Of a DNA stretch of 41,361 nt, positions 27,199 through 36,985 are shown piece after piece; positions within the stretch are counted from its first letter, which is position 1, and the number at the start of each line of letters is the position of its first letter. The notes beneath the pieces were generated by a model. That model did not search any database. It had not been told where the DNA came from and was given only the letters and a program-made list of their open reading frames with translations. Made by a program: the position numbers and the translations under genes. This DNA comes from Bacteroidales bacterium Bact_09 (GTDB lineage: Bacteria; Bacteroidota; Bacteroidia; Bacteroidales; UBA932), in the NCBI GenBank assembly GCA_001603455.1, contig LUZA01000080.1, forward strand, positions 1 through 41,361, given 5' to 3'.

Positions 27199-28644
27199 GT
27201 GATAGAAGATTTCCCTGAACATTTAAGACCTTATACAGACAAGGAGATACCCGCTGCCATGCAGCGGATCGCAGCTCATAAATATTTTCCACAGGTAGCA
27301 GAAATCATTTTTCCCGGAATCACTCCAGAGCAGGCTATCACTAAAGTATTGTCCGTAAAGACCGTTTGCCAATTCCAAATGGAGTGGATGTATGCTTTCA
27401 ATCAGCGTGTCATTCAAACCACTCTGGAAAGTTTTACATACCATATCAGCCCCCTGATAAAACCAGGAACAGGATACCTGTACATATCCAATCACCGGGA
27501 CATCATCCTGGATTCATCTTTATTGCAGATGGTTCTGGTATTCAATAACCTGCCAACCAGCATGATCACCTATGGGGACAATCTGCTGGTCAACCAGCTG
27601 GCAGAAGACATCGCGCGGTCAAACAAAATGTTCAAAGTGGTACGTCAGGGTAATAAGAGGGAGTTGTTCAAGAATTCATTATTATTAAGTGAATTCATGC
27701 GAAGTTGCGTACGTCATGGGGATTCTTGCTGGATAGCCCAGCGCAACGGCAGGACAAAAGATGGACTGGACAAAACTTCAAAGGCTCTTGTAAAAATGAT
27801 GGCCATGAGCGGCAACCGTAACGATCCCGTAGAAAATTACGCTGCGTTGAACATCGTCCCTGTTTCCATTTCCTATGAATACGAGCCGTGCGATTACCTG
27901 AAAACAAGGGAACTTTTATTAGGTGCCCATGGAAAAATCTATAAAAAAGAGGAAGGCGAAGACCTGAACAGTATGCTAACCGGGATCATTCAATGGAAAG
28001 GCAAAGTCCACATCCATTTGGGCGATCCCCTTACACGTGACGACCTGGAACCCTACTGCAATGAAGATTTCAATTCCTTTACAGCCAGTCTTTCTGAGCT
28101 CATAGACAAAAGGATCTACAAGGGATACAAATGCTTCCCCTCTAATTATATAGCTTACGACCTTCTGCAAGGCGAGGTTGCCGGCGGTGGTGGCACTGCC
28201 AGTGATACGGTCCAAATCATTGCCGGCAGCTCTGCTTTCAGCACTGCCAGCGAGACTCCTCATGGTACTGCTCAAGATACTTCTAGTGGCATTGCCGGCA
28301 GCTCTGTTCAAGGTATTACCTGCAGCTCTGTCCATGGCATTGACAGCAGTTCTGCTCGAGGTACTGCTCAAGATACTGCTCGAGGTTTCGCCCACAGTAT
28401 TACTTTAGGTGAGCATTATTCTGTCCAGGAGAAAGCCGCCTTTTTAAAGCGGTTGAAGAAAATCACAGATCCATCTCTGATATTATCACAAAAATCCATT
28501 GAAGGGCTTCCCCGGATCGATTTCAATAAACTAACTGCAGAAGAATATGCAAAAGCCCGCCAAATTTTTCTGAACATTTATGCCAATCCGGTATGCAGTG
28601 CCCGGGAATCTCCGAGATTCTGCGCCATTCAGCCAATATCTTAA
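27199..28644 (+). CDS. 1-acyl-glycerol-3-phosphate-type acyltransferase with repeat insert
   Basis: The 481-residue protein starts at GTG 27199. The acyltransferase core includes 'GYLYISNHRDIILDSSLL' (acceptor-site NH...D), 'WIAQRNGRTKDGLDKTSKALVKMM' and 'LNIVPVSISYEYEPCDYLKTREL'. This fits the large LPLAT-like proteins of Bacteroidota. From about residue 327 to 405 there is a Ser/Thr/Gly/Ala-rich insert of 8-residue repeats that is not part of the fold. The last 16 residues are encoded by one arm of a 28-bp inverted repeat. With the KS-like pair it suggests synthesis of a special lipid (inference). Confidence 0.8.
   Translation: MIEDFPEHLRPYTDKEIPAAMQRIAAHKYFPQVAEIIFPGITPEQAITKVLSVKTVCQFQMEWMYAFNQRVIQTTLESFTYHISPLIKPGTGYLYISNHRDIILDSSLLQMVLVFNNLPTSMITYGDNLLVNQLAEDIARSNKMFKVVRQGNKRELFKNSLLLSEFMRSCVRHGDSCWIAQRNGRTKDGLDKTSKALVKMMAMSGNRNDPVENYAALNIVPVSISYEYEPCDYLKTRELLLGAHGKIYKKEEGEDLNSMLTGIIQWKGKVHIHLGDPLTRDDLEPYCNEDFNSFTASLSELIDKRIYKGYKCFPSNYIAYDLLQGEVAGGGGTASDTVQIIAGSSAFSTASETPHGTAQDTSSGIAGSSVQGITCSSVHGIDSSSARGTAQDTARGFAHSITLGEHYSVQEKAAFLKRLKKITDPSLILSQKSIEGLPRIDFNKLTAEEYAKARQIFLNIYANPVCSARESPRFCAIQPIS
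28264..28404 (+). repeat. 24-bp tandem repeat in the acyltransferase gene
   Basis: Five 24-bp units start at 28264, 28288, 28312, 28336 and 28360, with a diverged sixth at 28384. They encode G-[TI]-x-x-[DS]-[TS]-x-x octapeptides such as GTAQDTSS and GIDSSSAR. Further degenerate units precede 28264. Units 1 and 5 share 18 of their first bases, so copies have been shuffled or duplicated. Confidence 0.85.
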
Positions 28645-28720
28645 CGCTAACATACTCTAATTTAGCACAATGCTTATTTTAGTATTGACAAGTGGCGCAG
28701 AATCTCGGAGATTCCCGGGC
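28600..28720. repeat. 28-bp perfect inverted repeat at convergent gene ends (dispersed element copies 2 and 3)
   Basis: The arm 28600-28627 is the exact reverse complement of 28693-28720, with 65 bp between. Each arm contains GAATCTC-C-GAGATTC (or its complement with central G), followed by TGCGCCA. One arm lies in the last codons of the acyltransferase gene, the other in the last codons of cutC on the opposite strand. Transcripts from either side would fold into a long hairpin, so it may act as a bidirectional terminator. The same core occurs at 10731 in the TonB receptor gene. Confidence 0.92.
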
Positions 28721-29615
28721 GCTCGGAAAGGTGTATGGCAGGCACCCGGGTTTGTTCCACAATTTTTGCCACATTATTTATGTTGACACCTTTGCCGGCC
28801 ATAATTGTGATCCTTCCGGCGGCTTTATCTACAAGTTGTTTTAAAAGGGAGATACCTTCTTCTGCCGTAGGGGCGTGTCCTGAGGTCAGTAAGGTGTGAA
28901 AGCCCAGGTTTATGATTTGTTCAAGTGTCCCCAGGGAATCAGTGCATTCATCAAATGCCCGGTGAAATACTATCCTTAGAGGCCGGTAACCGGTTGCAAT
29001 CCCTGTGTCCGGCCGGTCGGCATAGTAAGCCGCAGATACCCGATTGGTAGCAGTTTCCAGTACCTCGGAGCTGTTCAGGGTCCCGGGACCGGTGGCAGCA
29101 CGGATCATTTGCCGGAGGGCAGGCAGGTCAGGATGGCCTTCCTGGGTTAGTGCGCCGATGACAACACCTCGGACCCCGGCCTCGCGGCACAGACGGATGC
29201 TTTGGCACATCTGGTCCACCTCGGCCTGTGAATAATAAAAATCTCCGGGGCGGCACCGGATAAGCACGTGGGCGCGGTCCAGAAAGCTTTTGCCCGATAG
29301 CTGTAAGGGGTCATCGGAGGTGCTCAAACCGGCGGTGATTTCACGGTCGGAGGGGGGGGCAAACGCGTTTTGACGAGACGGACCGCCTGGAGAGGGCGAG
29401 GCTTGGTGTGGAGGACCGCCTGAAGAGGGCGAGGCTTGGTGTGAACCGTCTGGAGAGGGTGTGCCGAGGGATGGGTCGTCGCACAGTCGGGAGAGCCAGG
29501 TGGGGGTCAGGCCTCCGCATTCCAGGTTCGAACAAAGCTCGACTCGGTGTGCTCCTGCCTGTAACATCTCCTGTGCGCTTTCAATGCTTGTGCAACATGC
29601 TTCAAGTAGGGTCAT
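28674..29615 (-). CDS. cutC: CutC-family protein with two inserts
   Basis: The 313-residue protein has the CutC TIM-barrel signatures 'LLEACCTSIESAQEMLQAGAHRVELCSNLECGGLTP', 'HVLIRCRPGDFYYSQAEVDQM', 'GVVIGALTQEG', 'FHRAFDECTDSLGTLE' and 'LLTSGHAPTAEEGISLL'. CutC has been linked to copper homeostasis, but its biochemical role is unsettled. Family members are usually about 245 residues. The excess comes from a Ser/Pro/Gly-rich insert at about 48-110, containing 11-residue repeats, and a second insert near 170-205 before the FHRAFD strand. The C-terminal 'ISEILRHL' is encoded by a dispersed palindrome. Confidence 0.88.
   Translation of the reverse strand: MTLLEACCTSIESAQEMLQAGAHRVELCSNLECGGLTPTWLSRLCDDPSLGTPSPDGSHQASPSSGGPPHQASPSPGGPSRQNAFAPPSDREITAGLSTSDDPLQLSGKSFLDRAHVLIRCRPGDFYYSQAEVDQMCQSIRLCREAGVRGVVIGALTQEGHPDLPALRQMIRAATGPGTLNSSEVLETATNRVSAAYYADRPDTGIATGYRPLRIVFHRAFDECTDSLGTLEQIINLGFHTLLTSGHAPTAEEGISLLKQLVDKAAGRITIMAGKGVNINNVAKIVEQTRVPAIHLSERPGISEILRHLSILK
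29381..29465 (-). repeat. 33-bp tandem repeat in cutC
   Basis: Units beginning at 29381 and 29414 share GACCGCCTG-A-GAGGGCGAGGCTTGGTGTG apart from one or two bases, and a third, diverged unit follows at about 29444. They encode 11-residue H-Q-A-S-P-S-x-G-G-P-x repeats. The unit contains GGCTTGGTG, also found in the palindromic elements near trkH; this may be coincidence. Confidence 0.8.
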
Positions 29616-29818: not shown

Positions 29819-29968
29819 CCGAGCCCGGCTTGGTGCGCAACAAAACCAGCTCCCGAGCCCGGCTTGGTGCGCAACAAGAAAGCGGGCACGTTTCTATATA
29901 TCTGGTTTTCAGACGTTTAAATGTCTATGCAAAAAAGAGTTGCGCACCAAGCGCGGTTTGGGAAAGCG
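29819..29968 (+). repeat. REPIN-like palindromic element, copy A (with an extra half unit)
   Basis: The full element has arms CTTGGTGCGCAAC (29863-29875) and GTTGCGCACCAAG (29939-29951), perfect over 13 bp and 89 bp from end to end. The left arm is preceded by CCGAGCC-C-GGCTTGG, itself a near-palindrome. A duplicated left half, 25 bp identical, starts 34 bp earlier at 29819. The internal part contains a small hairpin (AGAC...GTCT). No coding capacity is evident. It occupies the space between tRNA-Lys and trkH. Confidence 0.88.
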
Positions 29969-29993
29969 GTGAATAACAGATGTAAAATTTATC

Positions 29994-30001
29994 TATATTT
30001 G
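29994..30001 (+). promoter_or_regulatory. -7 promoter box (TATATTTG) for trkH
   Basis: TATATTTG predicts a start near 30008 and a leader of about 31 nt before the ATG at 30039. It lies 26 bp after the palindromic element. A -33 TTTG at the right spacing is not seen. Confidence 0.55.
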
Positions 30002-30038
30002 ACGTCGGATCTTTAGAACAGATCTTATGGAATGAGCT

Positions 30039-31430
30039 ATGAAAAAGAGACTTATAAAATTTCGTGAGAAAAGTCTGCGTTTTTTTAAGTACGATTTTGA
30101 GACCATCCTGACTTTTGGGATCAAATTAGATCAGCCGTACCTCAGGTTATCTGTGGGTTACTTGTCTTATATCATTTTTGGAGCGCTTTTGCTTACGCTT
30201 CCGTTTATGCGGAGAGAACCTGTGGGTTTTTTGGACAACCTATTTACAGCTACATCGGCGGTATCTACCACAGGACTTGTAACGGTGGACATGGCCATGA
30301 ACTATAATCTAACCGGTCAGATTATTGTCCTATTTCTTATCCAGTTAGGCGGTTTAGGCTATATGACAGTTAGTTCCTTTGTTATGCTTAAGCTGACCAA
30401 GCATTTTACGATGATAAAAAAGCGTGTGCTTCAGGCCGAGTTTTCAGTACCGGGAGATTTAGATATAAAAAATCTGGTACCAAATATCGTGGGATTTACT
30501 TTTATTTTCGAAGCGGCAGGAGCTCTCCTTTTATATCTTTTTTTTAGGTCGAGCGGAGCGGACAATCCCCTCTGGAGCGCCATATTCCATAGCGTCTCGG
30601 CTTTCTGTACGGCCGGATTCAGCATTTATTCAGATAATCTGGTCCAGTTTGACACCAACATAGGAGTCAACCTGGTCATAATGGTTCTGTGTTATGCCGG
30701 CGCCATGGGATATATTGTTATGTATGATCTGTGGAAACGAATAAGGATAAGGAAACACAAGATCAGTTTCACAACAAAGGTGATTGCATTCGTGACACTC
30801 ATCCTGACCGTATTCGGCACAACAGAATTGTTTCTGTTCGAGCCGGGCATCAGGCATTTTTCCTGTTTTGACAGGTTTTTGATTTCACTATTCCAAACGA
30901 TGTCTGCCCTTACAACGGTTGGCTATAATACGGTGAACGTCGGAGGTTTCCTGCCTATCTCGTTGATGACCATAACGCTTATTATGTACTTTGGCGCGTC
31001 GCCTTCGGGTACCGGCGGGGGTCTGAAATCTACAACAACATCTGCCGTTTTTGCATACGTTAAAAGCAAGCTAAGCCAACAGCGTGATACCTATTTGTTT
31101 AAACACAGGATCCCGTCCTATAGGGTGGACAGTGCCCTAACCACAGTTTTGCTCTATTCTTTTGTCTTGCTTGTTGGTTCCTATCTTTTGGCTGCCACCG
31201 AGCGTGACACCAGTTATATAAAACTGATCTTCGAGGCAGGATCTGCTCTCGGTACGGTGGGCCTTTCCACCGGGATCACTGCGGATTTATCGGCTTGGAG
31301 CAAGGTCATATTGATTTTCCTGATGTATATAGGCCGAGTCGGAGTCCTGACGATCGGATACTCTATGCTCCTGAGAATGAGAGCCCGCACCAAACTGATC
31401 GGTGGGGCCGAGACTGACCTTGCTATATAG
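30039..31430 (+). CDS. trkH: TrkH/KtrB-type potassium transporter subunit
   Basis: The 463-residue protein carries four membrane-pore-membrane repeats with selectivity-filter-like glycine segments: 'TATSAVSTTGLVTVD', 'HSVSAFCTAGFSIYSDN', 'QTMSALTTVGYNTVN' and 'EAGSALGTVGLSTGI'. These fit the K+ pore of the TrkH/KtrB superfamily. The length is closer to KtrB than to enterobacterial TrkH. The regulatory RCK subunit (TrkA/KtrA) that normally accompanies it is not adjacent on either side. The stop codon lies 15 bp before copy B of the palindromic element. Confidence 0.92.
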   Translation: MKKRLIKFREKSLRFFKYDFETILTFGIKLDQPYLRLSVGYLSYIIFGALLLTLPFMRREPVGFLDNLFTATSAVSTTGLVTVDMAMNYNLTGQIIVLFLIQLGGLGYMTVSSFVMLKLTKHFTMIKKRVLQAEFSVPGDLDIKNLVPNIVGFTFIFEAAGALLLYLFFRSSGADNPLWSAIFHSVSAFCTAGFSIYSDNLVQFDTNIGVNLVIMVLCYAGAMGYIVMYDLWKRIRIRKHKISFTTKVIAFVTLILTVFGTTELFLFEPGIRHFSCFDRFLISLFQTMSALTTVGYNTVNVGGFLPISLMTITLIMYFGASPSGTGGGLKSTTTSAVFAYVKSKLSQQRDTYLFKHRIPSYRVDSALTTVLLYSFVLLVGSYLLAATERDTSYIKLIFEAGSALGTVGLSTGITADLSAWSKVILIFLMYIGRVGVLTIGYSMLLRMRARTKLIGGAETDLAI

Positions 31431-31445
31431 GGGCAGCCCCGGGCG

Positions 31446-31567
31446 CGCTTTCCGAGTCCGGCTTGGTGCGCAACAAGAAAGCAGGCGCGTTTCCATATAT
31501 CTGGTTTTCAGATGTCTGAATATCTATGCAAAAAAGAGTTGCGCACCAAGCGCGGTTTGGGAAAGCG
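31446..31567 (+). repeat. REPIN-like palindromic element, copy B
   Basis: Arms CTTGGTGCGCAAC at 31462-31474 and GTTGCGCACCAAG at 31538-31550 are again 89 bp from end to end. The inverted repeat extends outward with mismatches to CGCTTTCC (31446-31453) and GGAAAGCG (31560-31567). The internal sequence matches copy A at about nine of ten positions. It begins 15 bp after the trkH stop, so it may also fold in the trkH mRNA and end transcription. Confidence 0.9.
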
Positions 31568-31584
31568 TGCAGGCACAAATGGTG

Positions 31585-31627
31585 TAGCGCACCAGACTCG
31601 GCTTGGAGGGGTGGGCTTGGAGGGGTG
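31585..31627 (+). repeat. Fragments of the palindromic element and a 14-bp tandem repeat
   Basis: AGCGCACCAGACTCGGCTTGG resembles fused element ends. It runs into GGCTTGGAGGGGTG repeated twice (31600-31613 and 31614-31627). The second GGCTTGG supplies the TTG that sits 20 bp upstream of the RAYT -7 box. Confidence 0.65.
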
Positions 31628-31647
31628 AAAAGAATTTTATATTTTTG
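31617..31647 (+). promoter_or_regulatory. Promoter of the RAYT gene (TTG-N20-TATTTTTG)
   Basis: TATTTTTG at 31640-31647 matches TAnnTTTG, and TTG at 31617-31619 is 20 bp upstream. Predicted transcript start is near 31654, so the mRNA leader contains all three 32-bp repeats. The -33 part lies within an element-derived repeat. Confidence 0.6.
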
Positions 31648-31657
31648 TATAGCTCTA

Positions 31658-31753
31658 AAAGTTGGGATGGATATGAAGCGTAAGATTTGAAAGTTGGGAT
31701 GGATATGAAGCGTAAGATTTGAAAGTTGGGATGGATATGAAGCGTAAGATTTG
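31658..31753 (+). repeat. Perfect 3 x 32-bp tandem repeat over the RAYT start site
   Basis: Three identical, contiguous 32-bp units occupy 31658-31689, 31690-31721 and 31722-31753. Each contains GGATGGATATGAAGCGTAAG, i.e. two in-frame ATGs with an identical upstream context. In units 1 and 2 the frame meets TGA after MKRKI (stops at 31688-31690 and 31720-31722). Only unit 3 continues into the transposase. Because 32 is not divisible by three, each unit acts as a separate closed minicistron. Confidence 0.93.
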
Positions 31754-32612
31754 GCATATAAGTGTGCAGGGAAACGGTGGGCAGAGTGTGTTTCTGACAA
31801 ATGGTGATATTCTTCACGCCATTGATCTTCTGGGAGTTTTAAGTGTTTATTACGGGATTAAAGTTTGGGCTTATGATTTTATGTCCAATCATTATCATTT
31901 GATAATTGAGTGCGATAATCCTCAATATTTTATGCAAGCTTTTAGACAAAGTTATACGAGATATTTTAATACTGTTCATAATTCTTTCGGTTCTGTCGGC
32001 CGTTATGGATATAGCGCAGGTTTGTTGAATAGTCCCGAAAAGCTTGTGGCGAAGTTGATATATGTCCTTAGAAATTCTGTACGTCACAAGTTACAGTCGC
32101 ATCCGTATGTAGATCCGTACAATTCAGCTAAATACTATTTCTCTGAAGATCAGCGCATCAAGTGGCCGACGTTGAAACCAGCAGGTCCGAACTCAAAGTT
32201 GTCGCATTCTCACAAGATGATCCCTGAACATTTTCTGATCGATAAAAACGGACATATTTTTACACGTAGTTTTCTGCAATACAGAAAGGTGGAGGCTTGC
32301 TTCCAATCATATGCCAAGTTTATGAGTATGATAAGCAATCCAACGGATAAGGAGTTGGCAGAAGAAGAGGACAGGCAGCTTGATGACAAAAGAAACTATG
32401 TCAAAAATACTTGTGTAAAGATCACCGATCTTCAACTTAGCGAAATGATAATCAACAATATAAAACCAAATACTATTGCTTCATTGTCACATACCGAGAT
32501 CGTATCCATTGCACGGTATTTCCGAAACAATTATCCTGTTTCGGTACGCCAGTTAAGCCGGGTTTTTGGGATCCCCGAATCCACACTCCGATGGAGGATG
32601 CGGTGCAGCTGA
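31737..32612 (+). CDS. REP-associated tyrosine transposase (RAYT, Y1/IS200-like)
   Basis: The 291-residue protein (ATG 31737; ATG 31731 is also in frame) belongs to the Y1 HUH transposase superfamily, TnpA-REP branch. The metal-binding HUH motif is His52-Tyr53-His54 in 'FMSNHYHLIIE', and the likely nucleophile is Tyr109 in 'KLIYVLRNSVRHKL', the position of the Y-I-H-x-N-P motif of RAYTs. The C-terminus (about 269-291) has a helix-turn-helix-like 'SVRQLSRVFGIPESTLRW'. RAYTs are single-copy, domesticated relatives of IS200/IS605 transposases that act on REP palindromes. Copies B and C of a palindromic element lie on each side, the latter overlapping the stop. The gene looks more AT-rich than its neighbours. 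Confidence 0.9.
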   Translation: MKRKIWHISVQGNGGQSVFLTNGDILHAIDLLGVLSVYYGIKVWAYDFMSNHYHLIIECDNPQYFMQAFRQSYTRYFNTVHNSFGSVGRYGYSAGLLNSPEKLVAKLIYVLRNSVRHKLQSHPYVDPYNSAKYYFSEDQRIKWPTLKPAGPNSKLSHSHKMIPEHFLIDKNGHIFTRSFLQYRKVEACFQSYAKFMSMISNPTDKELAEEEDRQLDDKRNYVKNTCVKITDLQLSEMIINNIKPNTIASLSHTEIVSIARYFRNNYPVSVRQLSRVFGIPESTLRWRMRCS

Positions 32613-32745
32613 GCCGGGCTTGGAGCGCAACAAGAACGCAAATGCAATTCCATGTATTTGGAATTCAGCAGTTTGAATGTTTCAGAAAAAAGAACTTGCG
32701 CACCAAGCCGGGCATGGATAGAGTGCGCACCAAGCCGGGCTTGGA
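32612..32745 (+). repeat. REPIN-like palindromic element, copy C, with extra half unit
   Basis: The left arm CTTGGAGCGCAAC starts at 32619 and the right arm CTTGCGCACCAAG ends at 32707, 89 bp in total as in copies A and B, with one mismatch in each arm. Internal sequence is more diverged. A further end unit follows, including the perfect palindrome CCAAGCC-G-GGCTTGG at 32730-32744. The element begins at the last base of the RAYT stop codon. Confidence 0.87.
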
Positions 32746-32813
32746 TAGAAAATTTATATTTTGCAAAAACGTTCACAATTTATATCTTGCAGAAGATTAT
32801 CTTGTAGAAGATT

Positions 32814-34375: not shown

Positions 34376-36985
34376 TTATGCGCGCCGCAGTCGCAGACTA
34401 TTGAGCACAACCGAAACAGAGCTGAAAGCCATGGCGGCACTGGCCCACATCGGATTCAGAAGCAGTCCGTTGACGGGGAACAAGATCCCGGCCGCAATGG
34501 GTATTGCAATGACATTATAGATAAATGCCCAGAAGAGGTTTTGTTTGATGATGCGTACGGTTTTCTTTGATAATTGAACGGCTTTGGGCAGCAGCATCAG
34601 GTCCGAGGTAGTCAGTGTGACCATTGCTACGTCCATGGCAATATCGGTACCCTTACCCATGGCCATACTCACATCGGCCCGTGCAAGTGCCTGTGAATCA
34701 TTTATCCCGTCGCCCACCATCGCTACAAATTTCCCTTCTGATTGCAATTGCATGATGTATTCTTCCTTTTCCTGGGGTAGGACACCCGAGATCACGTGCC
34801 GAATACCGAGTTCCGAAGCGACCTTTTCGGAAGTCTTTTTGGAATCGCCCGTGAGCATGTGTACCTCGATGTTCATTTTGTGCAAGGTATTCAGCGCCTC
34901 CGGAGTAGTGTCTTTTATTGGATCTTTGAGCGCTGCAACAGCCAGGATCTGTGTTTGGTTGCCAAAGAACAGGACGCCTTTACCTTCTGATTGCCAATTG
35001 CTTGCCATTGTAATCAATAATTCCGGGGAGCGATAATCGTGCTGTTCATTACCGCCGACTTTGGATTCCCGGAAATGCGAGGTTGGATAGATGTGTGGTT
35101 CAATGGAATGCATGGATGAATTGATATTGATGTGGGATTCTCCGAATTGCCGTAAAGGATTGTCCCGATCTGAAATATTTTGCTGGACAAAATTGAAGTT
35201 ACCTGCACGAAATTTTTGTCCTGCGTGGGAAAACTCTATTCCCCTGCCCAGGATATTCTCAAAATTGTCCAGTCTTACTGGTTGGATATTCTTTTGCTTA
35301 AGATACTCTACAATGGCATGGGCAAGGGGGTGCTCAGATTTCATCTCGCCTGCAAGAAAAACGGACAATTCTGTATCGGAGGGATCTTTTGTCCAAATAA
35401 TTGTATCGACCTCGGGTTTTCCTTTAGTCAATGTACCTGTTTTGTCCAGCACTACACAGTTGATTTTACCCATATTTTCGAGTGCAAACGCGTCCTTAAT
35501 CAATATATGATTTTGAGCTCCTTTTCCAATCCCGACCATCAAAGCTGTTGGAGTTGCCAGACCCAGAGCGCAAGGACAGGCGATTACCAGAACTGAAACG
35601 CCAGCCAGCAGGGCTATTGTGAAAAACGAACCTCCGCCGATAACCATCCAGAGGACAAAAGTGAGAAGCGATATGTTAATCACAACAGGGACAAAAATCG
35701 CGCTGATTTTGTCCGCAATTTTTTGCACAGGAGCTTTACTTCCCTGCGCTTCTCTGACCATCCGGACAATATGTGCCAGGACTGTGCCGCTGCCTACCTG
35801 GGATGCCTTTATGGTAAGGGATCCGCATTGATTGATGGTACCTGCCAGAACTTTGTCGCTGGGTTGTTTTTCTACAGAGATCGGTTCGCCACTGATCATA
35901 CTTTCATCAACGTATGAAAGTCCCTCATTCACAATGCCGTCCACCGGAATGCGTTCTCCGGGGCGCACTACGATCAGGTTCCCGATCTGCAGTTGTGCCA
36001 CCGGCACTTCTTTTTCGGTAAATACTTCAGCGCCATCTGTCTGCAACTGGACAGGGGACAGCGGTACGGTAAGATTTGATGCAGAGGCAGCAGCTGAAAC
36101 GGAACCAGGGCCAAAGCCGGGTGCAGAGGCAGAACCAGAATCCGCAGCAGCTGAAACGGAACCATGGCTAAAGCTGGGTGCAGAGGCAGAACCAGAACCA
36201 GAACCAGAACCGGAACCAGAACCAGAACCCGCAGCAGCAGCCTTGGCGGTGGGGCAGGCAGGAGTTGCAGAAACAGATCCACTACCTGCCTCGGCTTTTA
36301 TTAGTATGCGGGCGGTTTTGGGCTGGAGGCCCATCAGACCCCGGATGGCCGAACTGGTGCTGTTTTTGGCGCGTTCTTCCAGGAGTTTTCCCAGGAGCAC
36401 GAATGCCAGGATCATCCCAGCCGCCTCGTAATAAACATGCACATCGATGCCTTTTTCCTGAATAATCCCGGGGAATAGGGTGTTGAACAGGCTGAAGATA
36501 AAAGCCACTATAGTGCTGAGGCTGATCAGCGTATCCATATTGGCCGAGCCTTTCCGGAGCAATTTCCAGGCACGGATATAAAAATCACGGCCCGAAAAGA
36601 ACATGATGGGGAGAACCAGCAGGAGCATGACCCAATGTGCTGGTTTCCAATCCATAAAGATCATCGCCACCAACATCAACGGGATGGCAAACGCCCATGC
36701 GACGATCGTTTTTAATTTAAGTAATTTATACTTTTTTTGTTCTTCCTGAGCCTGTCGCTCCTCCACATTTTCCTCCGGAACGATCAGCCTGTATCCGATG
36801 GCCTGCACCTCGTTCTGTATCTGGTACGGGCTCAGCTTTTCGGGGTCATATTCTACCAGCAGTGTGTTTGCGGCGAAATTGACCGAGGCTTGCGTGACTC
36901 CAGGCAGTGACTGGACCTTTTTTTCGATATTCATGGCGCATCCGGCACAACTCATATCTAAGACCGGAAAGGTGTCTTTTTGCAT
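34376..36985 (-). CDS. copA: Copper-type P1B-ATPase with low-complexity inserts
   Basis: The 869-residue protein has an N-terminal heavy-metal domain with Cys13 and Cys16 ('MSCAGC'), membrane segments, the CPC ion-binding motif at 470-472 ('VIACPCALGLATPTA'), phosphorylated Asp514 in 'DKTGTLTKG', the 'SEHPLAHAI' motif and the hinge 'MVGDGINDSQAL'. It exports Cu+ from the cytoplasm. A Gly/Ser/Ala insert of about 95 residues (231-325) splits the actuator domain between 'QPKTARILI' and 'VPVAQLQIGN'. A second, His/Ser-rich insert of about 50 residues lies in the nucleotide-binding region after 'GNFNFVQQN'. Both are atypical. It ends 124 bp from pqqD, convergently. Confidence 0.93.
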   Translation of the reverse strand: MQKDTFPVLDMSCAGCAMNIEKKVQSLPGVTQASVNFAANTLLVEYDPEKLSPYQIQNEVQAIGYRLIVPEENVEERQAQEEQKKYKLLKLKTIVAWAFAIPLMLVAMIFMDWKPAHWVMLLLVLPIMFFSGRDFYIRAWKLLRKGSANMDTLISLSTIVAFIFSLFNTLFPGIIQEKGIDVHVYYEAAGMILAFVLLGKLLEERAKNSTSSAIRGLMGLQPKTARILIKAEAGSGSVSATPACPTAKAAAAGSGSGSGSGSGSGSASAPSFSHGSVSAAADSGSASAPGFGPGSVSAAASASNLTVPLSPVQLQTDGAEVFTEKEVPVAQLQIGNLIVVRPGERIPVDGIVNEGLSYVDESMISGEPISVEKQPSDKVLAGTINQCGSLTIKASQVGSGTVLAHIVRMVREAQGSKAPVQKIADKISAIFVPVVINISLLTFVLWMVIGGGSFFTIALLAGVSVLVIACPCALGLATPTALMVGIGKGAQNHILIKDAFALENMGKINCVVLDKTGTLTKGKPEVDTIIWTKDPSDTELSVFLAGEMKSEHPLAHAIVEYLKQKNIQPVRLDNFENILGRGIEFSHAGQKFRAGNFNFVQQNISDRDNPLRQFGESHININSSMHSIEPHIYPTSHFRESKVGGNEQHDYRSPELLITMASNWQSEGKGVLFFGNQTQILAVAALKDPIKDTTPEALNTLHKMNIEVHMLTGDSKKTSEKVASELGIRHVISGVLPQEKEEYIMQLQSEGKFVAMVGDGINDSQALARADVSMAMGKGTDIAMDVAMVTLTTSDLMLLPKAVQLSKKTVRIIKQNLFWAFIYNVIAIPIAAGILFPVNGLLLNPMWASAAMAFSSVSVVLNSLRLRRA
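36087..36230 (-). repeat. 57-bp and 6-bp tandem repeats in copA
   Basis: Two 57-bp units start at 36087 and 36144 and encode 19-residue repeats of the S-G-S-A-S-A-P-x-F type. They pass into a hexanucleotide array of AACCAG/AACCGG units at about 36190-36229 encoding (Gly-Ser)n. All units are multiples of three. Confidence 0.85.

Follow-up and report, generated by a model that had tools for sequence, protein, structure and literature searches.

The closest described counterparts of the locus presented here come from E. coli, Pseudomonas fluorescens and the Bacteroidetes. In E. coli, the TnpAREP/RAYT (Bertels group 2, Quentin subclass 2.2) is associated with REP/BIME sequences, where REP doublets surround a single RAYT gene and a GTAG foot lies 5' of the hairpin. 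Classical REPs can reach hundreds of copies. In P. fluorescens SBW25, which has group 3 RAYTs, REPINs are formed by two inverted REPs that make a long hairpin together with a spacer, each REP type has a RAYT of its own, solo REPs accompany the dispersed copies, and the spacers are less conserved than the REPs (PMC3116915). Studies of REP recognition deal with groups 2 and 3 and their GTAG-type REPs (PMC8266576). With regard to the Bacteroidetes, the description of TnpAREP subclass 2.6 (Bertels group 5) in Quentin 2018 places it mostly in this phylum and reports genes flanked by 'atypical secondary structures' that are copied elsewhere in the genome (PMC6006769).

The window analysed here, a stretch of 41,361 nucleotides (contig LUZA01000080.1 of Bacteroidales bacterium Bact_09, assembly GCA_001603455.1), contains a RAYT gene surrounded by REP doublets, which probably constitute a RAYT–REPIN pair ('REPtron'), that is, a RAYT acting on its own REP doublets. 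The HUH fold, the doublets around a single RAYT gene and a foot 5' of the hairpin are shared with the E. coli system. Doublets with inward-facing feet occur in both and were rejected as a novelty, given that E. coli K-12 has an inward CTAC...GTAG beside rayT. Conversely, the foot is TKGCGC instead of GTAG, the Tyr motif is Y[VI]xRN[SAG] instead of YIHYNP, there is an extra C-terminal HTH, the spacer of 61–65 nt has a conserved centre, and the copies number in the tens rather than the hundreds. The SBW25 REPINs (PMC3116915) are alike in their inverted REPs and spacer forming a long hairpin, in having one RAYT per REP type and in their dispersed copies and solo REPs, but the invariant central dyad and the low copy number set the present elements apart. 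Subclass 2.6, as described in Quentin 2018, comes mostly from the same phylum and also has flanking structures that recur at other places in the genome; however, its published motifs (NH[LIV]H, WQ and YIH[QN]NP) differ from those found here (NH[YFLI]H, no WQ, Y[VI]xRN[SAG]), a separation made on these motifs by comparing the alignment by eye (PMC6006769). The initial annotation knew of no characterised case with this element family in Bacteroidota, a claim in need of amendment: RAYTs with flanking structures were reported in outline in 2018, and since that outline of subclass 2.6 exists (PMC6006769), the case is not without precedent.

The RAYT gene and its surroundings

Three copies of an element, named A, B and C, accompany the RAYT gene (Table 1). 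The full unit measures 113 bp and is made up of an 18-nt arm, a 6-nt foot, a 65-nt spacer, a second foot and a second arm; each of the three spans 89 bp from inner arm to inner arm, and B shares 93% identity with A, C 69–74%. The gene lies between B and C, with its stop codon within the left arm of C. These coordinates agree with the initial annotation, which had described three copies of equal 89-bp span with arms matching or differing by one mismatch, extra half units beside A and C, and a transposase between B and C with A one gene upstream.

Table 1. Features of the RAYT locus in the window.
Feature	Position	Strand	Remark
REPIN, family 3	28604–28716	+	between convergent genes; fourth element, absent from the initial annotation
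CutC-like gene	28674–29615		
Single REP (half unit)	29819–29841	+	left of A
REPIN A, family 1	29851–29963	+	between tRNA-Lys and TrkH
Arms of A	29863–29875/29939–29951		CTTGGTGCGCAAC/GTTGCGCACCAAG
Central dyad of A	29895–29919	.	TATATATCTGGTTTTCAGACGTTTA
TrkH potassium uptake gene	30039–31430	+	separates A from B; in synteny with the RAYT in G010
REPIN B, family 1	31450–31562	+	5' of the RAYT
Arms of B	31462–31474/31538–31550		CTTGGTGCGCAAC/GTTGCGCACCAAG
Central dyad of B	31494–31518		offset as in A
Decayed single REP	31583–31605	-	3' of B; GCGCACCAGACTCGGCTTGG; assigned by reading the sequence
RAYT, Y1/HUH transposase	31731–32612	+	293 aa
RAYT H54	31890–31892		
RAYT H56	31896–31898		
RAYT Y111	32061–32063		catalytic
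RAYT C-terminal HTH			about residues 254–292
REPIN C, family 1	32607–32719	+	at the RAYT stop codon
Arms of C	32619–32631/32695–32707		one mismatch per arm to CTTGGTGCGCAAC/GTTGCGCACCAAG
Central dyad of C	32651–32675		offset as in A
Single REP (half unit)	32724–32748	-	right of C

The start region of the RAYT (AAAGTTGGGATGGATATGAAGCGTAAGATTTG) is present at 31651–31753 in three tandem copies of 32 bp with ATG codons in each, the last copy being the likely start. Low-complexity tandem expansions are also found within the frames of conserved enzymes (28216–28399, 29380–29473 and 36000–36300), the genes concerned being an acyltransferase-like gene, CutC and a copper ATPase.

At the profile level, the window RAYT matches Pfam Y1_Tnp weakly (4e-4, under the cut-off) and NCBIfam NF047646 (REP_Tyr_transpos) at 1.6e-4, with 21.6 bits against a cut-off of 80; across the aligned RAYT members, REP_Tyr_transpos matches 18 of 18 at E≤0.01, the best value being 7.5e-12. 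The AlphaFold2 model (pLDDT 90) has as its top PDB match 4er8, the E. coli RAYT with a bound REP hairpin (probability 1.00), followed by the IS200, IS608 and ISDra2 transposases. Residues H54, H56, Y111, N115 and H119 are invariant among the 18 aligned homologues, and the protein combines the Y1 HUH fold with a HUH motif and one catalytic Tyr. The earlier identification as a Y1/HUH transposase of the REP-associated type is backed by the fold and the HUH/Tyr motif and, weakly, by NF047646. In the model, the C-terminus ends in helices, and HTH_psq matches this end in 9 of the 18 members.

Homologues were detected at E≤1e-5 in 31 of 100 relatives, all from one family, and in none of 40 genomes from other families of the order at the same threshold; the named bearers are Bacteroidales MAGs, including UBA5326, UBA1374, UBA5433, DTU002 and WOFB08. 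The RAYTs of the genus fall into two clades, the close clade 1 with 15 rows and the distant clade 2 with 10, split by a fully supported branch (100/100), and those of clade 2 cluster with RAYTs of other genera. Hereafter, G000 denotes the genome of the window, other G numbers its relatives, and C and L numbers contigs and loci. The locus is syntenic in G010 (TrkH 90%, RAYT 74%, with elements again on both sides), and there is one RAYT gene per REP type, vertically inherited, as the synteny with TrkH indicates. The RAYT and the two elements that flank it could otherwise be taken for an autonomous IS200/IS605-like insertion sequence with the elements as its ends, and both the HUH transposase and the direct-orientation copies on either side of most clade-1 RAYTs would suit such a unit. 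Nevertheless, each RAYT is single in its genome and occupies the same locus between species, at most places the elements stand without the gene, each supposed end is already a complete inverted doublet, and transposase and ends were not found as a multi-copy unit, which leaves the insertion sequence quite improbable.

Anatomy and dispersal of the REP doublets

Each element consists of two inverted REPs, with a TKGCGC foot and a 7-bp hairpin closed by a 3-nt loop, around a spacer. Across 29 elements, the TKGCGC foot is invariant, its GCGC and the spacer length of 61–65 nt are constant, the hairpin varies by locus, and a GTAG or GTGG tetranucleotide 5' of the hairpin was not found. In the arm-to-arm pairing, both sides had changed in 18 of 24 pairs, with a covariation of 0.66 compared to 0.21 for shuffled and at most 0.20 for slid structures; for the hairpin inside each arm the covariation was 0.60, compared to 0.23 and at most 0.28, two controls that do not fully remove relatedness, which the slid structures do retain. 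Because pairing is kept through change both between and within arms, each arm is a REP and each element a REP doublet. The elements, initially annotated as probable REPINs, fit the anatomical definition of two hairpin REPs inverted around a spacer. A similarity to Rfam MIR2599 at 28596–28725 (33.6 bits, gathering score 120) was taken as a chance hairpin resemblance.

With inverted arms some 24 nt long and a fixed length, the elements look MITE-like and might belong to a DDE transposase, their proximity to the RAYT being accidental. However, no clear excess of target-site duplications was seen, the mean longest repeat being 2.05 compared to 1.79 ± 0.14 for shuffled flanks, as HUH chemistry would predict. 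The covariation within the arms and the distinct arm sequence of each RAYT type also speak against MITEs, an explanation we find hardly credible.

A count of the 14-mer GCTTGGTGCGCAAC, allowing one mismatch at most, gave 10 occurrences in the 1.93-Mb genome and 0 when the sequence was reversed as a control, and copies at other genomic places, kept out of the training of the covariance model, score E values from 9e-18 to 4e-7; this excess and these scores exclude chance as the origin. The REPs that flank the RAYT thus recur elsewhere. The initial annotation had allowed for an element present at this locus only; instead, the covariance model built on the elements finds, for all families together, at least about 20 places in this genome and up to at least about 30 in G010, dispersed though not in high copy number, and many of them overlapping gene ends. 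Assigned by arm sequence, family 1 has at least about 5 places (A, B, C, one on C89 and a half copy on C148) and, among the matches listed, family 2 has three copies, all on C99, family 3 has eleven, including the fourth element of Table 1, and one copy belongs to none of the three. On this assignment the window carries REPINs of two families. The small number of family 1, at least about 5 copies, counts against the REPtron, as does the foot TKGCGC in the place of GTAG.

Further RAYTs are present in the same genome. A paralog on C99, 59% identical to the window RAYT, belongs with family 2, a fragment at the contig edge of C145 belongs with family 3, and a distant paralog lies on C66. RAYT genes and REPINs are located at the contig ends of C99, C122, C145 and C66, a placement which suggests that the assembly is interrupted by these repeats, and the family-3 RAYT probably lies within the gap between C122 and C145.

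Divergence of REPs across the genus

The clade-1 RAYT loci are flanked by the inverted element, usually with a copy upstream of the gene and another at its stop codon or close to it (the copies at L068 and L073 are imperfect and were identified by eye). Excluding L073, REP arms differ at 1.6 of 16 positions within a RAYT locus and at 8.6 of 16 between loci, and REP and RAYT distances are correlated (Mantel r=0.64, p=1e-4). This co-divergence could also arise if a locus and its flanks had descended together; yet the dispersed copies share the family sequence. The change of REPs in step with the RAYT across the genus points to mobile repeats and to the RAYT as the enzyme that would act on them.

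At E≤1e-4, the covariance model is positive in at least 11 of the 13 genus genomes; of the 87 genomes outside the genus, 2 have a single weak match each among the matches listed. Where a clade-1 RAYT is present, a genome has at least 17–38 match rows, where rows count both strands of the palindrome and are lower bounds. In G002, G005 and G004, where no clade-1 RAYT was found, 0, 0 and 3 rows are among the matches listed. The exception is G012, with at least 22 rows (about 13 places) and no clade-1 RAYT found; nearly all of its rows belong to an orphan family, GGTTCCACC, which resembles the element beside a G011 RAYT and counts against the REPtron. The initial annotation had considered that the element could be equally common in relatives lacking this RAYT, which is not what the comparison returned, apart from G012. 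Orphan REPINs with GAGGTTCCACCT arms are found at L177, L189 and L213–L225 of G012 and on C10, C12, C21 and C3 of G003, genomes in which no matching clade-1 RAYT was found. A tandem array of clade-2 REPINs, GTAAAGGTAGGAGGTAAC, lies immediately 3' of a clade-2 RAYT at L083 (2500–3000; contig C43 of G006).

At five sites away from the RAYTs, an element is placed between the same orthologous gene pair in two species, with flanking proteins 69–92% identical. The feet are lineage-specific: the family-3 copies of G000 have TGGCGC in 11 of 11 cases, and almost every matching G007 copy has TTGCGC. Many copies overlap the 3' ends of genes and encode their last residues. For instance, the CutC-like gene ends ...LSER-PGISEILRHLSILK, a tail supplied by the family-3 element, and many clade-1 RAYTs terminate inside their own 3' REPIN. 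The element at the CutC end encodes the C-terminal tails of both convergent genes. These shared sites, the lineage's foot in family copies, the supply of gene ends and the conserved central dyad would favour doublets that are immobile, fixed gene-end structures (terminator-like, mRNA-stabilising or chromosome-binding) kept uniform by gene conversion or by the RAYT in place. On the other hand, most copies lie outside the shared sites, the CutC gene end holds REPINs of different families in G000 and G007, and insertion may simply favour gene ends; immobility is, on balance, unlikely. The lineage-matched REPs mean either that copies are homogenised in place or that gene ends are insertion hot spots. 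In G010, the site of A is not cleanly empty but retains one REP-like hairpin, ctagacgcggtctgg, as a remnant, which is a further point against the REPtron.

The spacer centre carries an exactly centred dyad, YAA-N4-CTG-N5-CAG-N4-TTR, which scores a mean of 9.7 of 12 positions over 13 REP families compared to 6.2 when shuffled, an excess that is partly by construction, since these elements themselves supplied the motif. Clade-2 elements, which have other feet and hairpins and were not used in defining the motif, carry it at 8–11 of 12. It was absent from 8 candidate RAYT-linked inverted repeats of other genera, some of which may not be real elements. A genome-wide protein site was rejected, as the excess over the reversed pattern is equally large in the element-poor G004 and looks compositional, and a high count in G016 turned out to come from mixed sequences. 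Recognition solely by the RAYT HTH is weakened, because clade-2 RAYTs group with other genera and yet clade-2 elements have the dyad. At a guess, the dyad might be a double-strand site for the C-terminal HTH or for a host factor.

A proposed mechanism and its implications

In the mechanism proposed for the REPtron, the RAYT would be a HUH endonuclease passed on by vertical descent, with one copy for every REP type, that most likely works in trans on the doublet of its own REPs. When single-stranded, each REP would fold into a hairpin of about 7 bp with a 3-nt loop and a 5' TKGCGC foot; the HUH domain may recognise foot and hairpin, nick alongside them via Tyr111 and rejoin the ends. The doublet would thereby occasionally be copied or moved, mostly to gene ends. 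Binding, cleavage, movement and action in trans are suggested here by analogy with the known systems. A more speculative and rather doubtful idea is that the RAYTs of the genus rewrite REPINs in place: doublets would persist at orthologous sites for as long as the species has existed, with foot and hairpin swapped in concert to the version of the resident RAYT around a fixed dyad serving as a separate double-strand docking site. If true, a domesticated transposase would homogenise sequence rather than merely mobilise it.

In comparison with the published systems, the non-GTAG foot, the Tyr motif and a centred dyad common to two RAYT clades are new, as are the copies that encode gene ends and the orthologous sites whose REPs have changed lineage by lineage, and the co-divergence series within a genus is unusually clear. 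The conserved spacer centre goes unmentioned in current descriptions of REPINs. The question of why cells retain RAYTs is open and has been addressed almost exclusively in Proteobacteria. Within the present genus, about 15 RAYT loci have differing REP sequences, several per cell, in small genomes, which makes a natural specificity matrix of enzyme by hairpin for REP recognition beyond GTAG, and its orthologous sites allow one to ask whether REPINs are mobile or edited in place.
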